The position numbers were made by a program, and so were the translations under genes. Shown here piece after piece: positions 1 through 36,082 of a stretch of DNA of 58,733 nucleotides. The notes beneath the pieces are model-generated. The model was not told the DNA's origin. It searched no databases and saw nothing but the letters and a program-made list of their open reading frames with translations. The stretch is from a virus. Numbering within the stretch: the first letter of the stretch is position 1; the number at the start of each line of letters is the position of its first letter. The stretch is from positions 1-58,733 of the IMG/VR virus record IMGVR_UViG_3300025138_010775. One strand, written 5' to 3'.

Positions 1-3000
1 CATCATCTCCGCCACCACCTCCACCACCTCCGCCATCGTCTCCACCACCACCTCTTCCACCTCCGCCACCACCTCCGCCTCCGCCATCATCTCCGCCACC
101 ACCCCCACCTCTTCCTCCACCTCCTGGGGTTAGTCCTAGTCCTACTCCTACTAATGCCAACACGATTGCTGGTGCTATAGATGTTGTTATTTGTATAGAT
201 ACTAGTTTTAAGTATCCATTACAGAATTGGACACAATTTAAAGATGAGTTATATAAATTTATTTATGACACTAATAGCAGAGCAGATTTTGCTAACGATA
301 AAGTAAGAATTGGTATCACTACCAACTTTAATGAATATCCTCTGACCTCAAACTATAATGCTTTATTACAAAATCTAAATAATATTTCTTTTGATTCGCC
401 GCCACCGCCTTTCCCTCCTCCTCCTCCCGGCGTTGAATTTCCTAAGTTTTATACATTTCGCTTAAAACATCAACTGCAAAAAGCAAAAACACAACTAAAC
501 AATTCAAAGATTTGTAATAAATTAATCGTTGTTGCTACTCCTGCTTTCAGTACAGACATTGTACAAGAATCACTAGCTATCGACGAAGCAAAAGCAATTA
601 ATAAGTTAACAGTAAATGATGGAACATCTTACTATCCTTATAGTATTAAGATGATTAGCGCATATAGTCCTTTAAGTAAATATCCAAAAACGCCATCAAA
701 TAATACTAAATTACAAATTATATATGACCAATCTACAGCAAAAAATGGAGGAGCTTCGTGGTTACAATATGAAAATTTATGGAACTACGGCTATGGAACT
801 AATAGTACTACCGGTATTAATACGGTGGTTCCGACTTTAAGATACTTTATCACAAATATGGTATCAATATCTCCTACTCCTACTCCAACACCTACTCCTA
901 CAGCAACACCAATACCTTTGCCTGGGGGTATACCTAATAACATAGCAGGATGTAACGGCGAAGCATTTTTTGTAGATTGTCTTCCTACAGAAATAGCTGT
1001 TGGTAATTCTATAGATGACTATGCTAATATTTGGACACCTACTAATATTACGCTTAAAAAAGGCGACACAATCAGAATATCCTCTAGAGGATGTATGTGT
1101 TCAGAAAGCGTTGCTTTACAAAATATTAATAATCAAGATTTACAATTAGACGACGAAACACTAGTTCTTACAGAAGATGCTGATAGCTTATGTTCAGATT
1201 TTACAGGAGTACCAGGATCTAATGTTAATAGATTGTATGGTACGATTTTACCGGATGGAGTTAAGCCTAGTATTATTAATCAATTTGATATTGATCTTGG
1301 ACCAAATATGGCAGGAGGAACAGCGGTAAGTAAAATAACTAAACCTGGAACTGGTAAATTGTGGTTGCTGCCTTATGCTCCAAGCTATAGTAACACAAAT
1401 GCTTATAAATTTTGTGCTTCTATTTATGTAGACGCATTTTTTGCTACTCCAACAGCTACTCCAACAATCACCCCTACACCTACTGTCACTCCTAGTATTA
1501 CTCCAACAATATCATTAACTCCATCTATTACTCCTTCTAATAGCCCAACTGTTACGGTTACTCCTACTGTTACACCTACACTCACAATTAGCAGTACTCC
1601 TACTTTGACCCCCACTCCTACTTTAGCGGGATGTAATCTTGAAATATCATCTTTAGCATTAAATGATAGTAGTATGTCTATTATAGATGAGGGCCAAAAC
1701 CATATATATGTTGCTGATGGTTATGACGGAATCAAAATAGTTAAGAATCATGGCAGTACTTTAGAATTATTAAAATACGTTAATAAAGGACAAAATATAG
1801 ATAAAATAGCAGTTGACTTTAGTTTAAGAAAACTTTGTGCTGGCTACAATAAACAGATAGATATAATATCAATTGCAACTCCTGCTACGGCCTCCGTTTC
1901 TGCTACAATAGATCTGTCTTCTGTACTTACTGGTGGCACAGATAAAATAACAGATATTAAAGTTTTAGAGTCTCATAATACTGCTTATGTTATCTCTAAG
2001 CTAGGTGTATTTGTTGCGATTAATCTTGCTACTAATTCTATCATTAATAGTTCTACTTTAGTTAGTAGTGTTAATTACGATTTCAATTCACTAGACATAG
2101 CAACTTATCCTAATTATGATTATGTTTATGTAGCATTAAGAGGCTCTACAGGTGGAGGAATTTACAGAGTAGAAGCCGACACTCTTACAGTAAGTAATGT
2201 TACTTCAGTAGCTATATTAGCACCCAGTTCAACATATAGTTATGTGTATCCAAAATCTATAGCCGTTATTGGTAATTATGCTTATTTAGCGATTACTACG
2301 GGTAATGTAATAATATTCAAATTAGATCCTTTTACACTAATGTCTAGTCTTGAAATTAAGACAGCTGGGACTGCTGTAAATATTACTAAGTCTTGGGAAG
2401 ATCAATATCTATTTATTGCAGACTCTCAACAAGGATATACTATAGCTAATGTAGCAGATGTTGATAACATACATCTCAACTCTGTAGATAACCACAATAC
2501 GGTTTCTAATGTCGATATGTCTTCTGATGCTACTAAATTAGTTTTGTCACAAGGATATAAAGGCATCACTGTTGTAAAAAGTTGTGTTGGTAATTTTAGA
2601 CCTACTCCAACTTCAACCCCAACCCCTACAATTACGCCTACAAATACAGTTACTCCTACCGTCACTATTACTGCAACACCTACTGTTACACCTACTATTA
2701 CTGCTACTCCTACGGTTACTCCATCTTTAACTCCTACAATTTCTTTAACACCATCTAATACTCCTACTAACACAGTTACTCCTACTATTCCAACAACATT
2801 GACACCAACCCCAACAAATACTCCTACTTCATCACCAACACCAACCCTAACAGTAACTTCGAGTGTTACTCCTACTGTTACTGCTACTAAGACACCAACA
2901 CCAACATTAACGCCTACACATACAACCACTCCTACTATTACTCAAACGGTTACGCCAAGTCATACCTCTACGCCTACAACAACACCTACTAGCACCCCGA

Positions 3001-3863
3001 CACCAACTATTACTTTGGTTGATAGAACCAATAGGGCTAATTATAATAGCACAGCTTCTTGGGGGAGCGGCTCTCGTATTACTACTGTAGGAACCAATGG
3101 TGGAACTAGTTATTATGGCTGCTATGATTTTTCTGGACTTTTATTTGAATGGCTAGATGATGAGCCTTCTTCATTATATAAATGGGTAAGGGGCGGAGCA
3201 TATACATCTGCTTTATTTTATATAAGCAAAGCGTTTAGAAGTATACAATCTCCAGTAGCGCATTCACAATATACTGGATTTAGAGTATCTGCAAAAACTA
3301 CATCCTCAGACTTAATAGATTTTGTTACTGTATCAAATATAGACAATGCTAATGATAGCACAGGATTTGGTGCTGTATCTTACGAATACAAAATAGGTAA
3401 ATATCAAATTACCAATGCTCAATATGTAGACTTTCTTAATGCTGTAGCTACGACAGATCTTTATGGTCTATATCGTGTATATATGGGAACAGAACCTGAT
3501 GGAGGAATAACTAGACATGGATCATCAGGTACTTATGTTTATACCTATAGGAATTATATGCAAAATAAGCCAGTAAATCATGTCAATTGGTTTGATTGTG
3601 CAAGATATTGCAATTGGTTACATAACGGCAAACCCACAGGTTCACAGATAAGTTCTACTACAGAAGCCGGGGCATATACCTTAAACGGTGCTATTGCTGG
3701 TATTATAGATAAAAATACGGACGCCAAATATTATATTCCAACAGAAGATGAATTTGTCAAAGCGGCATACTATAATAATTCGATATATTATGATTATGGT
3801 ACCCAATCAAATACTGCGCCTTCTGCTGTTACAGCTAGTCCAGATGGCGACGGATTATTTTAG
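1..3863 (+). CDS. Giant multidomain virion surface protein, N-terminus outside window
   Basis: The frame is open from base 3 without a stop, so the ATG at 651 is internal (about codon 217 of the visible 1286). Visible order: a poly-Pro stretch; a von Willebrand A-like domain (nt about 160-870; strand DVVICIDTS with a degenerate MIDAS); a short TPTP linker; a Cys-containing beta-rich domain (945-1437); TPTP linker; an LVIVD-type beta-propeller-like region (1629-2600; recurring units such as [12 protein letters not shown]); a long TPTP linker; and an FGE/C-type-lectin-like domain (3016-3863) whose C-terminal half precedes its N-terminal half. The FGE catalytic cysteines are absent, so it is likely a binding domain. 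The stop is 25 nt before the next structural gene. A host-contact role is inferred from the domain types and neighbours. Confidence 0.8.
3..128 (+). repeat. Poly-proline coding repeat (CCN-rich)
   Basis: Almost every codon is CCA, CCT or CCG, interrupted by Ser and Leu. This gives runs of 4-10 prolines with SSPPPP-like units, as a rigid linker ahead of the vWA-like domain. A second short run lies at about 402-435. The repeat continues past the left edge, so its full length is unknown and it may be an assembly breakpoint. Confidence 0.85.
1444..1623 (+). repeat. Thr-Pro (TPTVTP) linker repeat
   Basis: Degenerate repeats of ACTCCTACT-like nonamers encode about 60 residues of alternating Thr-Pro with Val, Ile and Ser. 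They separate a beta-rich domain from the propeller-like region. The antisense strand is open as a GVGVTVGV string, which is an artefact of the repeat and not a gene. Confidence 0.85.
2602..3015 (+). repeat. Long Thr-Pro linker repeat before the permuted FGE domain
   Basis: About 138 residues of TPTVTPT/TPTITAT-type repeats are encoded by imperfect ACTCCTACT/ACACCTACT units. It is an extended linker joining the propeller-like part to the C-lectin-like tip. The same repeat class recurs at 20650-20883 and, on the other strand, at 58268-58327, so it is a shared building block of this phage's surface proteins. Confidence 0.85.
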
Positions 3864-19837: not shown

Positions 19838-20884
19838 ATGCCCAAAATTTCAGAATTAGACATTATTAAACGGTTAACCGAAGATGATTTTTTTCTGGTT
19901 GTAGACAAAGAGACTTCTACAACAAGACAGATTAAACTTTCTGATATTTTAGATATTGTTCAGCATGTTTTTAAATTAGAGATTAGAAGAGATCCTCCAG
20001 GACCAATAGAAAGACCTCCTTTAGCAGTTGTACGTACTCCTGGAACTTTAATTTCTAGCCCAGATTTATCCTCACAAATATTCAACACCCAAACCTCTGT
20101 CGCTGGTAAGATTGGAAAATCTGGTAGCCTGTCTTTTACAAGACACACAATCTCAAGATTAAATACAGAACTTTTAGCTTTAGGATTCAAGCTAGTATCA
20201 ACCTCAGGAGCTAATACTGGAGGTAAAACTAATTATACTCAACCAAACAATAATACTCATCATTCATGGAATAGAGCTAAAAATACTTGGGAAACTATTC
20301 CCGCTACTCAAAGCAGCTGGATAGGCTCTATGACCATAATTCCAAATACAGATATCTCTAATTTAATTGACTCATACTCTGTCACATCTACAGAAAGTAT
20401 AATTACATTAGCATATGATTCATTTGCTTTGCCTAATAGATATATTGTTACTGCTGTCAACGCTAATGAACAATACGGATCTGCAGAATCTAATGTGGTA
20501 ATATTTGATACATATCATGAGGTTACTGGAGCTCAAACAGTTAGTATGTGTAAACCTTCTGGTTACAATAAAATAAGAGTACAAATTAAATCTGAAAGAG
20601 GAAATAGTTTTGAGTACACCTTAAAAGATAGTGGTACAGCATGTTCGGTATCTCCTACTCCTATACCTGTGACACCAACTGTTACTCCGACATCATTTGC
20701 TACTCCTACTCCAACTTCTACTCCTAGAGTAACACCTAATGCTCCTACAGCGACACCAACTGTTACTCCAACTAGTTCTGCAACACCAACCGTTACGCCA
20801 ACTAGTTCTGTGACACCAACTGTTACTCTAACAAGCTCAGTAACTCCAACCAAAACACCGACACCAACAGTCACCCCATCCTAA
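19838..20884 (+). CDS. Tail-fibre-like protein with C-terminal TPTP tail (348 aa)
   Basis: The N-terminus (PKISELDIIKRLTEDDFFLVV) matches the usual opening of phage fibre proteins, in which a short DxxxxV/DG-type anchor module attaches to the tail. Residues about 60-265 are beta-rich and unassigned. The last 75 residues are TPTVTPT repeats including three copies of a 30-bp unit. It begins with TAGGATAA at 19827-19834, 3 nt before the ATG. Its TPTP tail ends exactly where the next gene opens with an FGE-type domain, the same order that is fused into one polypeptide in the first gene of the window. Confidence 0.65.
   Translation: MPKISELDIIKRLTEDDFFLVVDKETSTTRQIKLSDILDIVQHVFKLEIRRDPPGPIERPPLAVVRTPGTLISSPDLSSQIFNTQTSVAGKIGKSGSLSFTRHTISRLNTELLALGFKLVSTSGANTGGKTNYTQPNNNTHHSWNRAKNTWETIPATQSSWIGSMTIIPNTDISNLIDSYSVTSTESIITLAYDSFALPNRYIVTAVNANEQYGSAESNVVIFDTYHEVTGAQTVSMCKPSGYNKIRVQIKSERGNSFEYTLKDSGTACSVSPTPIPVTPTVTPTSFATPTPTSTPRVTPNAPTATPTVTPTSSATPTVTPTSSVTPTVTLTSSVTPTKTPTPTVTPS
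20650..20883 (+). repeat. TPTP repeat with three tandem 30-bp units
   Basis: Units at 20756-20785, 20786-20815 and 20816-20845 each encode PTVTPTSS-type decapeptides, with a partial fourth unit. The copies differ at a few bases and are clearly recent duplications compared with the more degenerate TPTP repeats at 1444-1623 and 2602-3015. Confidence 0.85.
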
Positions 20885-20904: not shown

Positions 20905-23052
20905 ATGGCGCATACATCACTATTTGATTTTACTAGACCCCATAGATCTGTTAATTTGCTCACCACTTCTGGTGAATGGGATGGAAAAATTAGAGCTACT
21001 ACGGTAGGCACTAATGGCATGCCATCATATTATGAAACTTATGATCAAAATGGAGGAGTTTCTGAATTTACAGAAAAGTCTGTACTTTTAAGAGACAAAG
21101 ATTTAAATGGAATGCCATATAATTTTTCTATGGGTAAACAGGCTTGGGGAGGTAATTATCTTTTATCAAAAGATGGATTTACAGCTTCTAGAAACCAAGA
21201 ATCATTTACTACAGTAGCTATTAGTTCTGGCAATTCCGGTTTTGGATTCAGAGTCGGTTCTATCAGCTCTTCTATAGAATTAAGCGGTACCGTTTCTGGT
21301 GCAAATATTACTTTTTCTGCTGGAACATATGATCCAATACACATGGATAAAAGAGTTGAAGTTTCAGGTTCTGGCATGTTGAGCTTTGCAACTATTGCTA
21401 ATGTAGTTCTAAAATCTAACAACGAAGTAAAAGTCATATTAGATAGAGATAGTAATGTTAATGGAGACAGAAATATAAAACTTACTTTGTCAAACCCTTT
21501 TAATATTCCACATATGGCTATTGTAGCTAATTCTGGAAACAGTCCAGATGGTTTTTCACCAGGACATGGTAAAGTTGATTCTAATTATAATATTGGTAAA
21601 TATTGTGTCACTAATGATCAATGGACAAATTTTTTAAATACAGCAGCTTCTGGATCTTTACATGATGAGCTATGGAATTCAAAAATGGAAGGTATTGAAA
21701 GAACTGGCGTAGGCTCTACTTATGAATATACAACCAAAGATCTCTATTACAACAAGCCTTTAGAAGTTGTCAGCTGGCAAGCTGCTGCTATGTATTGCAA
21801 TTTCTTGCATAATTCTAGTAAAAACGACACAAGACCAGCTTCTGCAAGATTATTAGATGGGGCTTATGATCTCAAAAGTAATGTTAAAAGCTTTAATAGA
21901 AGTTCTGGTGCGAGATACTTTTTGCCGTCTGTTAGTGAATGGTATAAAGCAGCATATTATAATCCTGGTGGTACAGATATTTATGGTAGAACATATATTC
22001 CTAGTGGTGCGGGATATAAAGATTTTGCTATTATGAATGATGAAGAACCTTCTGTTCAAGAAAGCATCAATGATCATGGCGATGGTCCCCAAGTATTAGA
22101 TGCTGGTCTTTTTGATAGAAATAGTTTCGAAGAAATTGTAAAATTATCTGGACATAGTGGTTCTGATAAAATTTTATGGGCTTTACATGGAGCCGCTGAC
22201 AGATGGGATAGTGTTATTACTCTTATTAGAGATTATAGACATAAAGATGCTCAGACACAAGGTCAATACAAGAATTCTGCTAGATATTTTCAAATGAAAA
22301 CAGCATATGAGCATCATTCTGCAGCCATTAGAAAAACAGGAGCTCTTTGGTATGGACTTAAGCTAGATCAGATTAATTTTTATTCTAGTTCTGATAACAG
22401 CATAGCGTCTTGTGGACCTCAAATGATAGCGTTTACAGATGATAAACTTCCTGGCTCTGTTACCTCATGTAGACAAAGATGGATGCCATTAACATTTGTT
22501 TTAGACGTTAATACACGTTTTTTAAATACTTTTAGCGAAAATGATTGGTTGGAAATTATGACTCATGAATTGGGTCATGGTTTAGGTTTCGGCACTTTAT
22601 GGAACAGAAATTTTGGCCCTAACGTAAGAAATCCATGGAACAGCTGTAGTAGTGCAGGTGGAACTGGATCTGAAGGAGCATATAATGCTACTGATTTAGA
22701 TGGAGATTTCTTTATTAACACAAGCAAAGCATACAATTCTGCTGTTAATGACGGAGTAGAAAGAAGACTAATACCCATTACTGGAGCTCACTGGGTTAGT
22801 AATTATAGGGACGATACTACCGCTACAGACGGATTAGAATATCCAGGCTTAAGTAACGAGTTGATGCAAGTTAATTATATTGCTAACAGTATAATTTCAA
22901 CAGTAACTATTAATAACATGATTGACTTAGGTTATTACGGTCATGTAAATCATATTACTGGCGAATCCAGCTTAAGTTTAGACAACAAAGTAGGTGCATC
23001 TTCTATACCTAGAATTATAGGTCTCGGTGACCCAAATTGTCGTCAAGTATAA
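20905..23052 (+). CDS. Permuted FGE/C-lectin-like domain fused to leishmanolysin-type metallopeptidase (715 aa)
   Basis: Residues about 20-115 match the C-terminal half of an FGE-type domain (TTVGTNG, a YDQNGG near-motif, then GFGFRV). After a roughly 80-residue beta-rich insert, residues about 215-365 match the N-terminal half (IGKYCVTNDQW, a PLEVVSW-AAMYCNFL segment, ARYFLPSVSEWYKAAYY). The order is therefore permuted. The C-terminal part is a metzincin of the leishmanolysin (M8) type: HELGHGLGFG with His554, Glu555 and His558; the third His (629) comes 71 residues later in GAHW, followed by a NELM Met-turn near residue 650. FGE cysteines are absent, so the first domain probably binds while the second cleaves host surface protein. 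The stop lies 1 nt from the convergent gene on the - strand. Confidence 0.75.
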   Translation: MAHTSLFDFTRPHRSVNLLTTSGEWDGKIRATTVGTNGMPSYYETYDQNGGVSEFTEKSVLLRDKDLNGMPYNFSMGKQAWGGNYLLSKDGFTASRNQESFTTVAISSGNSGFGFRVGSISSSIELSGTVSGANITFSAGTYDPIHMDKRVEVSGSGMLSFATIANVVLKSNNEVKVILDRDSNVNGDRNIKLTLSNPFNIPHMAIVANSGNSPDGFSPGHGKVDSNYNIGKYCVTNDQWTNFLNTAASGSLHDELWNSKMEGIERTGVGSTYEYTTKDLYYNKPLEVVSWQAAAMYCNFLHNSSKNDTRPASARLLDGAYDLKSNVKSFNRSSGARYFLPSVSEWYKAAYYNPGGTDIYGRTYIPSGAGYKDFAIMNDEEPSVQESINDHGDGPQVLDAGLFDRNSFEEIVKLSGHSGSDKILWALHGAADRWDSVITLIRDYRHKDAQTQGQYKNSARYFQMKTAYEHHSAAIRKTGALWYGLKLDQINFYSSSDNSIASCGPQMIAFTDDKLPGSVTSCRQRWMPLTFVLDVNTRFLNTFSENDWLEIMTHELGHGLGFGTLWNRNFGPNVRNPWNSCSSAGGTGSEGAYNATDLDGDFFINTSKAYNSAVNDGVERRLIPITGAHWVSNYRDDTTATDGLEYPGLSNELMQVNYIANSIISTVTINNMIDLGYYGHVNHITGESSLSLDNKVGASSIPRIIGLGDPNCRQV

Positions 23053-31698: not shown

Positions 31699-31726
31699 AT
31701 TATAAAACCTAATCGGATATAGTCAA
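31699..31726 (-). promoter_or_regulatory. Sigma70-like promoter for SSB
   Basis: On the - strand TTGACT (31721-31726), a 16-bp spacer and TATAAT (31699-31704) match the consensus at 11 of 12 positions. The -35 box overlaps the TGA stop of the polymerase C-part gene. The expected transcript starts near 31692, giving a leader of about 38 nt before the SSB ATG. Confidence 0.75.
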
Positions 31727-33348
31727 GCCTTAGGAATAAAACATTTTTCTACGATTAGACTATCTTTATTTTTTGACTTCTTACCAGTAAAAATTAATAC
31801 ATTTCCTTCAAACACATGAGTCCTATATGACGCCCATGTTTCTGGAAAAAGAATAATAGAATCTAATAAACCATACTGGTCTTCTCCTGTGACGAAAGCC
31901 ATTTCTGCACCAGGGTTTTTACCGTTTTTTGTTTTGGTAACATTGACGCCAACAACTTCTGCCGCTAATATAATATCATTAGTTTTATATGTTTTTTTAA
32001 AATCTTTGCAGTTGGTATTGGTCATTTCTATTTTGTAAGAATCTAATTTTGAGCATGTGATGGCTGCTCCTAATAGAGAGTTCTCTGAATCTGACAACCA
32101 TTCTATTTTATCTGTTAGTGAATAAGGAGGATTATCTATAGAGGCTATTAAATTATTAATAATTTCTTTTCTATTGATGTTAACTCTTTTAGTTAGTAGC
32201 TCTGTGAGTATGGTCTTTAAATTATTTTCTTCATTAGCTATTGCTTCTTGACATTTTTCCATTTCTTTTTTTGTCAAGGTATTGAATACTTCGTACTCAA
32301 ACAACATTTTAGTCCTAGATATTTTAAAATAATCTAATGCACCGCATGATATTAAGGCTTTAGTTGCGGTACTGTTAATCTTACACAAAACTTTATTAAG
32401 CATATCGTACCAATTTAATTGTTTTATATTTATCTTGTCTTTTTCTAAGATTTCTAATATCTTTTTATATACAGAGTTGCCTAAGCCTTTTATGTCTGTT
32501 AGTCCAAAAAATATTTTTCTGTCTTTTATAGAAAACAGTTCATTAAGATTTCTAATATCTGGAGTTTGTATATTGATATCCATCTCGTTGGCATTTCTGA
32601 CCAATTCTTTAATCTCTTGTTGTGGATCTATTTTGTCTTTAGCGAATTTCAGATATGAAGCAAAGAAGACTCTTGGAAAATGAGCTTTGGCGTATGCTGA
32701 AAGATATGCGTTCATAGCATAACTTACTGCATGGGATTTATTAAAACTATATCTTTGACTTTTTTCAATCCATCCAAATATTTCTTCTGCTGTGTCTTTA
32801 TCTACCTCGTTGACCCTTTTGGCTCCTTGTAAGAAAGACTTCTTAACTTCTGCCATTAAATCAGCCTTTTTCTTACCGATAGCCTTTCTAAGAACATCGG
32901 CTTCTTGAAGATCAAATCCAGACACTACTCTAGATATTTCCATAGCCTGTTCTTGATAAATCATTTCACCATAGGTTGTTTCCAATACTCTTTGCAGAAT
33001 GGGGTGATAATAGTCTACAGATTCTTCTCCGTTTTTCTTATCAATATAGTGATTAGATACTGTTTTACCATCTCTCACGGCCTCTAAACATCCAGGTCTT
33101 AAAATACTAATTAGGGCTGAAAGCTGTTCTATGTTTCCTGGCTTTAGTCTTTTAGCCATGCTTTGTCCTAGTCTAGACTCTAACTGAAAACAACCTTTTG
33201 TGTTTCCTGAAGAAATCAAGTCCCAGGTTTTAGAACATTCCAAATTAATTTTTTCTAATTTTGGCTCAAATTGTATTCTAGGAAATTCTTCATTATTCCC
33301 TGTAATCTCAAATTTACAACCACAATCAAAAGTATAATAATCAGACAT
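31723..33348 (-). CDS. DNA polymerase III alpha subunit, C-terminal part (fingers to OB region)
   Basis: It begins with a 35-40 residue segment containing DCGCKF and then joins the alpha-subunit pattern at CSKTWDLISSGNTKGCFQLES (about 38-58), RLKPGNIEQLSALISILRPG (about 67-86), YQEQAM, LRKAIGKK and FNKSHAVSYA. A helix-hairpin-helix segment (ITDIKGLGNSVYKKI type) lies near residue 283, and residues about 440-541 form an OB-like tail. It lacks the PHP domain and the catalytic Asp residues, which are in the separate gene at 34211-36082. The two products must associate to make a polymerase. It overlaps the exonuclease gene by 8 nt. Confidence 0.88.
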   Translation of the reverse strand: MSDYYTFDCGCKFEITGNNEEFPRIQFEPKLEKINLECSKTWDLISSGNTKGCFQLESRLGQSMAKRLKPGNIEQLSALISILRPGCLEAVRDGKTVSNHYIDKKNGEESVDYYHPILQRVLETTYGEMIYQEQAMEISRVVSGFDLQEADVLRKAIGKKKADLMAEVKKSFLQGAKRVNEVDKDTAEEIFGWIEKSQRYSFNKSHAVSYAMNAYLSAYAKAHFPRVFFASYLKFAKDKIDPQQEIKELVRNANEMDINIQTPDIRNLNELFSIKDRKIFFGLTDIKGLGNSVYKKILEILEKDKINIKQLNWYDMLNKVLCKINSTATKALISCGALDYFKISRTKMLFEYEVFNTLTKKEMEKCQEAIANEENNLKTILTELLTKRVNINRKEIINNLIASIDNPPYSLTDKIEWLSDSENSLLGAAITCSKLDSYKIEMTNTNCKDFKKTYKTNDIILAAEVVGVNVTKTKNGKNPGAEMAFVTGEDQYGLLDSIILFPETWASYRTHVFEGNVLIFTGKKSKNKDSLIVEKCFIPKA

Positions 33349-34033
33349 TATTAAAGGCGTTTCTAAACTTAATCTTTGGTGACAAACTTCTAAATAGCTT
33401 CATAAATCTAATCAGTATTTCTGCAGTATCTTGTACATCCTTTAACGCATCATGGGCATTTTCTTTAGATAGTCCCATATAGTCTCTAAGATTATCAAGA
33501 GTATAATTTTTTAATTCGTTATTATTCTCAAACCAATAAAAAATAACATTCATGATATCTAAAACATCTCTAGGATAAAATATGTCAGTTTTGTTTTCCT
33601 TGTTGACATTTTTATATTTTTGACTTAACCTATTAATAATTGGTAGGTCAAATCTATTAATGTTGTAACCAGCAGCAATAGGCGCACTAAAGCAGTTCTT
33701 TTTAACAGATCTTGTATGGTACATTTGTAAATAACTTACAAACATTTTCCAAGCCTGTTCTTGCTTTTGATGCTTTTTCCAAGACTTGAGAACTTCCCCT
33801 TTGGTTGTTCCTTGGACTTTTGCATGAAAATCTAAAACATCAGAATCATCATAAGTATATTTAGGGTTATCTTGTAGTGCTTCAGGCTTTAAGCAAATAT
33901 TAAATTCTGAATCTGGCACCACCTCCAATTTAATTGGATCAATAATAACGGCTGCAATCTGGACAGGACTACAAACTTCTGGATTGCAACCGTCTGTTTC
34001 TAAATCAAAAACACAAATTTTTTGACTGTTAAT
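33341..34033 (-). CDS. DnaQ-like 3'-5' proofreading exonuclease with probable AUU start
   Basis: DEDDh exonuclease: FDLETDG (Asp10, Glu12 by this start), NINRFDLP in the middle, and the HDALKDVQDT end motif (His and Asp five apart). Its position between the two polymerase halves indicates the epsilon-type proofreader of this replicase. The frame also has an ATG at 34096, but that lies inside the 60-aa gene and has no Shine-Dalgarno site. GGAGGTG lies 5 nt before an ATT codon at 34031-34033, which gives the normal N-terminus (xNSQKICVFDLETDG) and overlaps the upstream stop (ATTAA). I therefore choose AUU. Product is 230 aa. Confidence 0.8.
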   Translation of the reverse strand: MNSQKICVFDLETDGCNPEVCSPVQIAAVIIDPIKLEVVPDSEFNICLKPEALQDNPKYTYDDSDVLDFHAKVQGTTKGEVLKSWKKHQKQEQAWKMFVSYLQMYHTRSVKKNCFSAPIAAGYNINRFDLPIINRLSQKYKNVNKENKTDIFYPRDVLDIMNVIFYWFENNNELKNYTLDNLRDYMGLSKENAHDALKDVQDTAEILIRFMKLFRSLSPKIKFRNAFNNV

Positions 34034-34211
34034 CTGACACCTCCACCTTCTGGTCTGGACGAATAAAATGTTTGTTGTTAGGATCTGCTGCCACATAGCA
34101 GTTGATACTTTTACAACAAGTAACCTTAACTGAATTTACTTTGACATATTCTGTGTTGTTGAGTTTAAAAGATTTACCAACAGCAACTTCTTGAAATATT
34201 TTTTGCATCAT
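34029..34211 (-). CDS. Small protein between polymerase halves (60 aa)
   Basis: It starts in the stop of the polymerase N-part gene (TAATG), with GGAG a few bases upstream; the second ATG (34208) is equally possible. The sequence shows a small beta-rich protein with two Cys in VTCCKSINCYV and no recognisable motif. Its stop overlaps the proposed AUU start of the exonuclease. Possibly a replisome accessory or a spacer gene; no function can be assigned. Confidence 0.6.
   Translation of the reverse strand: MMQKIFQEVAVGKSFKLNNTEYVKVNSVKVTCCKSINCYVAADPNNKHFIRPDQKVEVSD
34038..34044 (-). promoter_or_regulatory. Strong Shine-Dalgarno site deciding the AUU start of the exonuclease
   Basis: GGAGGTG on the - strand, within the last codons of the 60-aa gene, is 5 nt (counted after GGAGGT) from ATT at 34033. 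No ATG, GTG or TTG in the exonuclease frame lies at a usable distance. Confidence 0.6.
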
Positions 34212-36082
34212 TATTCTCCGTATGATAGTGTATCTGATATTGACATAACCTTATCTAACATAGCCACACCAAGGATATCAAACTTGATAATACCCAAAGA
34301 TTCTAGATCTTGCATTTCCATACCAGCTATAGTGGTTTTGTTTTTTGTATCATAAATCATTGGACACATCGTATCTAAGTTGTGACTACTAATTACTACA
34401 CCGGCAGCGTGTTTTGATTGGTTGGATTTGGTACCCTCTAATCTAATAGCCTGTTCGAACCTTTTGGCAAGGGGGCCTTTTAATTTATTTCCCTGTTTAG
34501 ATATTGAGCACCATTCTTTAAGTCTATCAGTATTATTTTCTAAAGCCCATCTAATTATAGAAGCTTCCCCATAATCGTCTTTCATTTCTTGTAATTCATC
34601 TGCAATTTTTGCTTCATCGGGTATGCATTTTGTTATCTGGTTCATTTCATCAAAACTTATGTTGCCATAGACACGCAAGACTTCTTTTAGTGCGCCTCTT
34701 CCTTTCATGGTATTAAAAGTGATCATTTGAGAAACTTTATTTTCTCCATATCTTCCTCTAATATATGATATGATGTCTTCTCTTTTATTAATCGGGACAT
34801 CTACATCTATATCTGGCATAGAGACCCTACCTTCTGTATTCCTACCAGAGTTATAAAATCTTTCAAAAATTAGGCCATATTTCATTGGATCAATTGAGGT
34901 GATTCCAATAAGATAAGATACCAAACAGCCAGCAGCAGAACCTCTTCCTGGCCCTGGCAACCACCCTTGAGACCGCACACGATCGACAATATCGGCAACA
35001 ATTAAAAAATAGCTAGATAAGTCAGCTCCTTGTAAAACAGACAGCTCTTGCTTGATTCTTTCGGTATATTCATGATGTTTTTCTTTAGGTACATTATTGG
35101 CTATTTTGTCCCTCCAGCCGTTACGACATAACTGCCTTAAATATTCATCAGGATTTTGTTCGTTAGGACATTTAAAAGGAGGAAGTAATGGTCTGTTTAA
35201 TATATCGTATTCTTCACACATACTATCTATTAGTTGTGTATTTTCTATTTCTTCTTCTGTATGTATTTCTGCCATTTCTTCAGGAGAAAGAATATAGTAT
35301 TTGTCAGACTTAAAAAAGCAACTAAAGGGAACATCTTGTCCATCCAACATCTTTTTATTAATATCTGTTAATGTCGTTTTTATATTGTTGCACAAGAGGA
35401 TTCTTTGATCCGTGGCATCTTCTTGCTCAGAATAATGAGCATCAGGAGTGCATATAACTTTTGTTTTTGTTATTGCTGCTAAAGCTCTAATTTTTTCGCT
35501 TAATTCTTTTTGCTTTGGCATATATTCTTGATCCATTAATTGTGTTTCAAGAAAAAAGTTTTCCTTGCCAAATATGTCCTTCATTTGATCTACAAAATTT
35601 AAGCAGAGTTTTTGATAATTATCTGGATTGTTTGCGATAAGATCTGGGATATATGAACCCATATGTCCGCAGAAGCTTATTAAATTTTCCCCCTTTACCA
35701 CTTCTTGTAATTTATCTATAGAAAGTCTTGGTTTACGATAATAATTATTAGGATTATTGGATTCAGAAACTATGCGAATCAAGTTTTTCCAACCTTCAAA
35801 GTTCTTAGCCAAAACTAAGAAATGAGTTAGCTTACTATTCTCTGGTGTCTTTATATTAGAATCATCAAAGGACAAATATAATTCACATCCTAAAATAGGT
35901 TTTATATTATTAGATTTAAGAGTTTGATGCATTTGAACAGCACCAGATATCGAACCGTGATCAGTAATTGCACAACTTTTAACTCCAATATTTTTACACC
36001 TTCTAGCTATTTGTTTAGGCTTAGATAGGCCGTCCAGCAAAGAATAGTGGCTATGAACATGTAAAGGTATATAATTTTTCAT
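34211..36082 (-). CDS. DNA polymerase III alpha subunit, N-terminal part (PHP and catalytic palm)
   Basis: A PHP domain comes first (HVHSHYSLLDG at 8-18, ITDHGS at 39-44, GCELYL at 65-70), with its metal ligands apparently intact. The palm has GPGRGSAAG (377-385) and the catalytic PDIDVD (Asp424, Asp426), and the third catalytic Asp is in KFDILG (Asp602). The protein stops at residue 623, about 20 residues after this Asp, exactly before the region that continues in the separate C-part gene. No intein-like sequence is present at the end. It overlaps the nuclease gene upstream by ATGA and the 60-aa gene by TAATG. Confidence 0.9.
   Translation of the reverse strand: MKNYIPLHVHSHYSLLDGLSKPKQIARRCKNIGVKSCAITDHGSISGAVQMHQTLKSNNIKPILGCELYLSFDDSNIKTPENSKLTHFLVLAKNFEGWKNLIRIVSESNNPNNYYRKPRLSIDKLQEVVKGENLISFCGHMGSYIPDLIANNPDNYQKLCLNFVDQMKDIFGKENFFLETQLMDQEYMPKQKELSEKIRALAAITKTKVICTPDAHYSEQEDATDQRILLCNNIKTTLTDINKKMLDGQDVPFSCFFKSDKYYILSPEEMAEIHTEEEIENTQLIDSMCEEYDILNRPLLPPFKCPNEQNPDEYLRQLCRNGWRDKIANNVPKEKHHEYTERIKQELSVLQGADLSSYFLIVADIVDRVRSQGWLPGPGRGSAAGCLVSYLIGITSIDPMKYGLIFERFYNSGRNTEGRVSMPDIDVDVPINKREDIISYIRGRYGENKVSQMITFNTMKGRGALKEVLRVYGNISFDEMNQITKCIPDEAKIADELQEMKDDYGEASIIRWALENNTDRLKEWCSISKQGNKLKGPLAKRFEQAIRLEGTKSNQSKHAAGVVISSHNLDTMCPMIYDTKNKTTIAGMEMQDLESLGIIKFDILGVAMLDKVMSISDTLSYGE

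Follow-up and report, generated by a model that had tools for sequence, protein, structure and literature searches.

Does the 715-aa protein of this virus (ORF 20905..23052, + strand) carry an FGE-type domain whose two halves have exchanged places and, if so, how did the exchange arise and what purpose does it serve? The window, by which we mean the whole stretch of 58,733 nucleotides analysed, is a linear IMG/VR virus fragment, for which a longer copy of the same virus (L004, 78.9 kb) and a relative (L005/L009, 42.6 kb) are available. The original prediction, made from the letters alone, placed the inverted domain at 20950–22110 and regarded it as the second of two copies. Our preferred reading, which we consider likely, is that both copies are true circular permutations of an FGE-type domain with a C-type-lectin fold, that the permutation has a single origin, and that the domain likely serves as a non-catalytic binding or display module of the virion.

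To avoid circularity, half-profiles were built from 100 normal-order bacterial domains only. These placed the C-half before the N-half in both copies and matched neither shuffled controls nor any ORF of the window other than the two copies. In copy 1 (3027–3860), the C-half starts immediately past a long PTPT linker (3027..3287, +; i-E 9.7e-17) and the N-half forms the C-terminal end of the protein, ...SPDGDGLF (3315..3860, +; i-E 8.5e-67). The protein itself spans 3-3863 (+) of the window and has, by eye only, a von Willebrand A-like stretch near its start. In copy 2, the C-half comes first in the chain (TTVGTNG...SEF...GGN...GFGFRV; 20992..21255, +; i-E 1.2e-6, and 61 bits with a viral profile), and the N-half second (IGKYCVTNDQW...MYCNFLHN...LPSVSEWYKAAYY; 21514..21978, +; i-E 6.7e-38), with GFGFRV from 21238 and YNIGKY from 21586. 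The domain extends past the N-half profile match to a GDG at about 22092, and the predicted boundaries fit. Pfam alone detects both halves of copy 1, reversed (FGE-sulfatase 154-253, then 36-138), and only the N-half of copy 2 (FGE-sulfatase, 1.8e-9), missing its C-half.

The copies have diverged as strongly as had been proposed: aligned half by half, the C-halves are identical at 27/94 positions and the N-halves at 63/177. They nevertheless have a common cut, ending in ...GDG and starting just before W...TTVGTNG, at a point where normal-order relatives continue past GDG into an NxANxN...W...TTVGTNG segment. Both copies recur in the independent contig L005/L009 (87% and 75% identity), so an assembly error is rejected, as originally argued. 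The accompanying argument that two copies with one cut point make the permutation ancient was weak in itself, since the copies are paralogues of one event; its conclusion held up in the wider survey described below.

Between the halves of copy 2, at the fused old termini, lies an insert of 84 residues (21262..21513, +) flanked by GFGFRVGS and MAIVAN. The 80-residue insert of the original prediction is therefore real, and its beta-rich character is predicted at low confidence (beta strands in a part of the model with pLDDT about 44-68). The insert has no Pfam, phage or local relatives, and none outside two close viruses. After the permuted domain, the 715-aa protein continues into a C-terminal region with the motif HELGHGLGF (HExxH; 22564..22590, +), a putative metalloprotease site recognized from sequence only. 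This motif is degenerate (NQLGRALGF) in the 75% identical relative (L009:5992-8151), where the putative protease activity may thus be lost. The region has no Pfam or PDB family match and a single weak match among phage proteins. Twenty bases upstream of copy 2, a 348-aa ORF with a PTPTVT linker at its end (19838..20884, +) perhaps belongs to the same structural gene set.

Replication genes of the window match phage DNA polymerase, DnaB-type helicase, primase, UvsX-like recombinase and ribonucleotide reductase families. The + strand half codes for very large proteins that are rich in linkers and have no good PHROG matches. The DNA polymerase (phrog_405) is split over ORFs 31723-33348 and 34211-36082 (−; profile 43-611, 622-1077), with a polymerase-exonuclease-like ORF between them (33341-34096). 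On the longer contig of this virus (L094:4414-15743), two subtilase-like proteins adjoin the window; they contain PTPT/PPP linkers and RCC1-like repeats (by eye).

The permuted domain is homologous to the FGE-sulfatase/SUMF1-type family (PF03781), which matches both halves of copy 1 and, with the bacterial profile for its C-half, of copy 2, and with which it has the motifs IGKYxVTNxxY, YCNWLHN, LPTxxEWYKAA, GNVxEW and GFRV in common. It differs in having reversed halves, fused old termini and no catalytic cysteine pair, and in sitting within linker-rich phage proteins. Because the sequence match comes with an order opposite to the N-to-C order of PF03781 in both copies, we regard the domain as a permuted homologue and not as a standard member of the superfamily. 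Each segment is present once, the old termini are joined, mostly by 7-11 residues, and the new termini fall in a former loop, as expected of a circular permutation.

Structure prediction suggests that the permuted chain keeps its fold as one unit. With 83 aligned permuted domains as input, the AlphaFold model of copy 1 is a single compact domain (pLDDT 95.9, pTM 0.94), and that of copy 2 has lower scores (pLDDT 79.7, pTM 0.83), most of its core blocks lying above 80-90. The best Foldseek matches of copy 1 were TvpA, PorK, CarF, FGE and EgtB, each over 57-114 columns of one half with E-values above 0.05 and none over the whole fold; this is expected of a permutation under an order-bound aligner. 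The top match, at probability 0.99, was Treponema denticola TvpA (PDB 2Y3C), a variable protein of a diversity-generating retroelement (DGR) with an FGE-type C-type-lectin fold, and a profile search of PDB sequences likewise returned FGE-fold proteins with TvpA among the top matches. The copy 2 model gave only meaningless Foldseek matches and none to the FGE fold, probably owing to its low-confidence insert and the permutation, and a viral structure library gave no match.

How widespread is this arrangement? Viral contigs yielded 101 relatives when searched with a profile of four permuted domains, and those kept mostly align end to end in permuted order. With the first part of the N-half coded A, the rest of the N-half B and the C-half C, 105 distinct domains in viral contigs have the order C-A-B. 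For comparison, bacterial genomes were scanned with the permuted profile, and of at least 573 loci the best 80 were read. These come mainly from Planctomycetota and Verrucomicrobiota and contain 0 C-A-B against 109 distinct A-B-C domains. The closest sequence relatives are normal-order FGE-like proteins of Planctomycetota, Verrucomicrobiota and the PEP-CTERM type (L006-L008, L101-L180), which reach about 50% identity in a half and differ in that all have the N-half followed by the C-half. A clean division of the two orders between viruses and cells would be too strong, given that 61 distinct normal-order domains turned up in the viral collection when it was scanned with a normal-order query; those of L188, L189 and L025 are in clearly phage-like proteins, and those of L006-L008 are on short contigs of bacterial look. 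A search of 50,697 phage records gave no match to the permuted domain, and literature searches found no published description of a permuted FGE-type domain.

For phylogeny, the segments were restored to canonical order. A careful tree built from both halves, with 44 permuted and 26 normal rows that include both window copies and two other cuts, places all permuted rows on one side of a branch (support 99/97, 100% of bootstrap trees), with copy 2 on a long branch (2.68). Another tree gave the same separation (SH-aLRT 77). The picture was less clean in a quick tree made from a larger set of rows that were also longer, including L236: cut 1 needed four changes there, and the rows of cuts 2 and 3 were nested within those of cut 1. 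Conflict between the halves had been named as a way in which the prediction could fail. The N-half tree unites the permuted domains in one group with one change (support 82). The C-half quick tree splits them; the C-half data themselves favor a one-clade tree, which has an lnL 78 above the free quick search (p-AU 0.945). Thus, in the trees tested, the permutation arose once and the two halves agree. An independent origin in each lineage is not needed: one cut is common to 105 domains, and those placed in trees have a single origin. The prediction of an ancient permutation is borne out to that extent; its further claim that the permutation is functional draws support from conservation and from the predicted fold. 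The normal-order domain of L025 groups with L188, L189 and a planctomycete protein, which points to a separate acquisition; in that contig, a single protein (L025:2-4399) has a permuted domain directly followed by this normal-order domain of planctomycete-like ancestry.

The position of the opening has not stayed fixed, and two rarer versions of the domain open at other loops. A second cut (L067/L068) starts at YWxPSxDEWYKAAFY and ends in ...GAxSGIxLK, and a third (L226-L228) starts at YAMYATxSxSAPTRVSANGIGNG and ends in ...EDEWYKAAYYLPTV. Both versions re-seal the first cut (e.g. GNG-SAGNTG-NFANY) and retain the fused old termini; the opening has moved at least twice more after the first cut. 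Nested arrangements were also seen. A 3063-aa protein (L080:1396-10584) contains several permuted domains, one with a whole normal-order domain within its N-half, and a permuted domain of L087:3592-8670 has its C-half interrupted by RCC1-type repeats together with an Ig-like stretch (by eye).

Many domains with the first cut have cysteines near their first and last residues (copy 1 positions 10 and 268). Among 83 such domains, 32 have both, 3 a single one and 48 neither (Fisher 2e-19), so that about 40% possess the pair, and the same positions are rarely cysteine in normal-order domains (1/34 and 3/56). On the best tree, each end cysteine changes 12 times, nearly always in step with the other; only 3 independent changes fall on well-supported branches, and relatedness therefore explains part of the association. 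The pair is absent from both window copies and from the re-sealed forms. Judged by this pattern, it is probably a disulfide staple across the first cut.

What might the domain do? The catalytic FGE residues are lost: there is no cysteine-rich column in the C-half catalytic region of the 83 aligned domains, and no cysteine in the C-half active-site region of copies 1 and 2. The only common cysteines of the C-half are at its start and constitute the putative staple. Formylglycine synthesis is therefore unlikely. The FGE/C-type-lectin fold is a scaffold widely used in phages and bacteria for variable ligand binding. A diversity-generating retroelement was considered and rejected, as reverse transcriptase (PF00078) was found in 0/50 contigs with a permuted domain, all of them fragments; TvpA differs in this respect, being retroelement-diversified and in normal order. 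Permuted domains are mostly at protein ends or adjoin P/T/S-rich low-complexity linkers, a terminase match is present in 12/50 contigs, and the neighbors in L056 match baseplate wedge, head-closure and virion structural families. Most likely, the permuted domain is a ligand-binding or display module without catalytic activity, carried by virion adhesins or fibers; binding, virion location and host are inferred. The most serious competitor, which we rate as unlikely but worth keeping in view, accepts the same permuted fold and makes it an enzyme or a purely structural virion spacer that does not bind host or surface ligands. It gains from the indirect basis of the binding role, from the baseplate-type proteins among the neighbors and from the fusion of copy 2 to a protease-like region; the lack of catalytic cysteine columns in the C-half, and a top match that is a non-catalytic variable protein of the same fold, argue against it.

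Two further alternatives question whether each chain closes on itself. In a domain swap, the C-half of one chain would complete the N-half of the next, giving a linear polymer or oligomer with the copy 2 insert as a possible spacer. Reversed order is compatible with such a swap, and tandem arrays (CNCN...) do exist. Nevertheless, we think it improbable: the short junction linkers, the existence of proteins little bigger than a single permuted domain (L032, 315 aa) and a cysteine pair at both new ends all suit a closed domain better, as does the confident one-chain AlphaFold model, which swapping could also accommodate. Less credible still, to the point of being very improbable, is that the halves are non-co-folding remnants of a tandem array whose outer halves were deleted. 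Bacteria do have tandem arrays of normal-order domains that could yield such remnants, and copy 2 has its 84-aa spacer, but boundaries common to 105 domains, the absence of visible residue loss at the cut, congruent trees of the halves and moved cuts that retain each segment exactly once speak against it, as does the confidently predicted single fold.

Under the circular permutation that we prefer, the original N- and C-termini would have been fused through a short linker and the chain opened in the loop between the halves, in a single event in an ancestor of a family that then spread through tailed phages. The simplest route would be tandem duplication of the domain followed by trimming of both ends. 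Within large surface proteins of the virion, the product would be carried on proline/threonine linkers and act in ligand binding or display; a new opening would mount the same scaffold from a different face, and the site of the former termini could offer a place for inserting other domains. More tentatively, and with slightly more doubt than belief, we suggest that termini fused once, an opening since placed at three or more loops and a disulfide staple together let these phages vary the mounting of the domain beside or instead of diversifying its sequence.

Natural circular permutations are known in concanavalin A, swaposins and DNA methyltransferases, in which, as predicted here, halves are reordered and the fold is kept; those are other folds, and the FGE-like family here shows three openings. 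Permuted methylases are mentioned for jumbo phages (PMC7824862). Standard domain searches misread permuted proteins, as Pfam did with copy 2. The paired cysteines at the new ends make a direct, testable prediction. With its several openings, the permuted lineage also serves as a natural experiment on the loops in which this fold can bear its termini. The change in topology suggests an additional route by which phages may alter how a binding face is presented.
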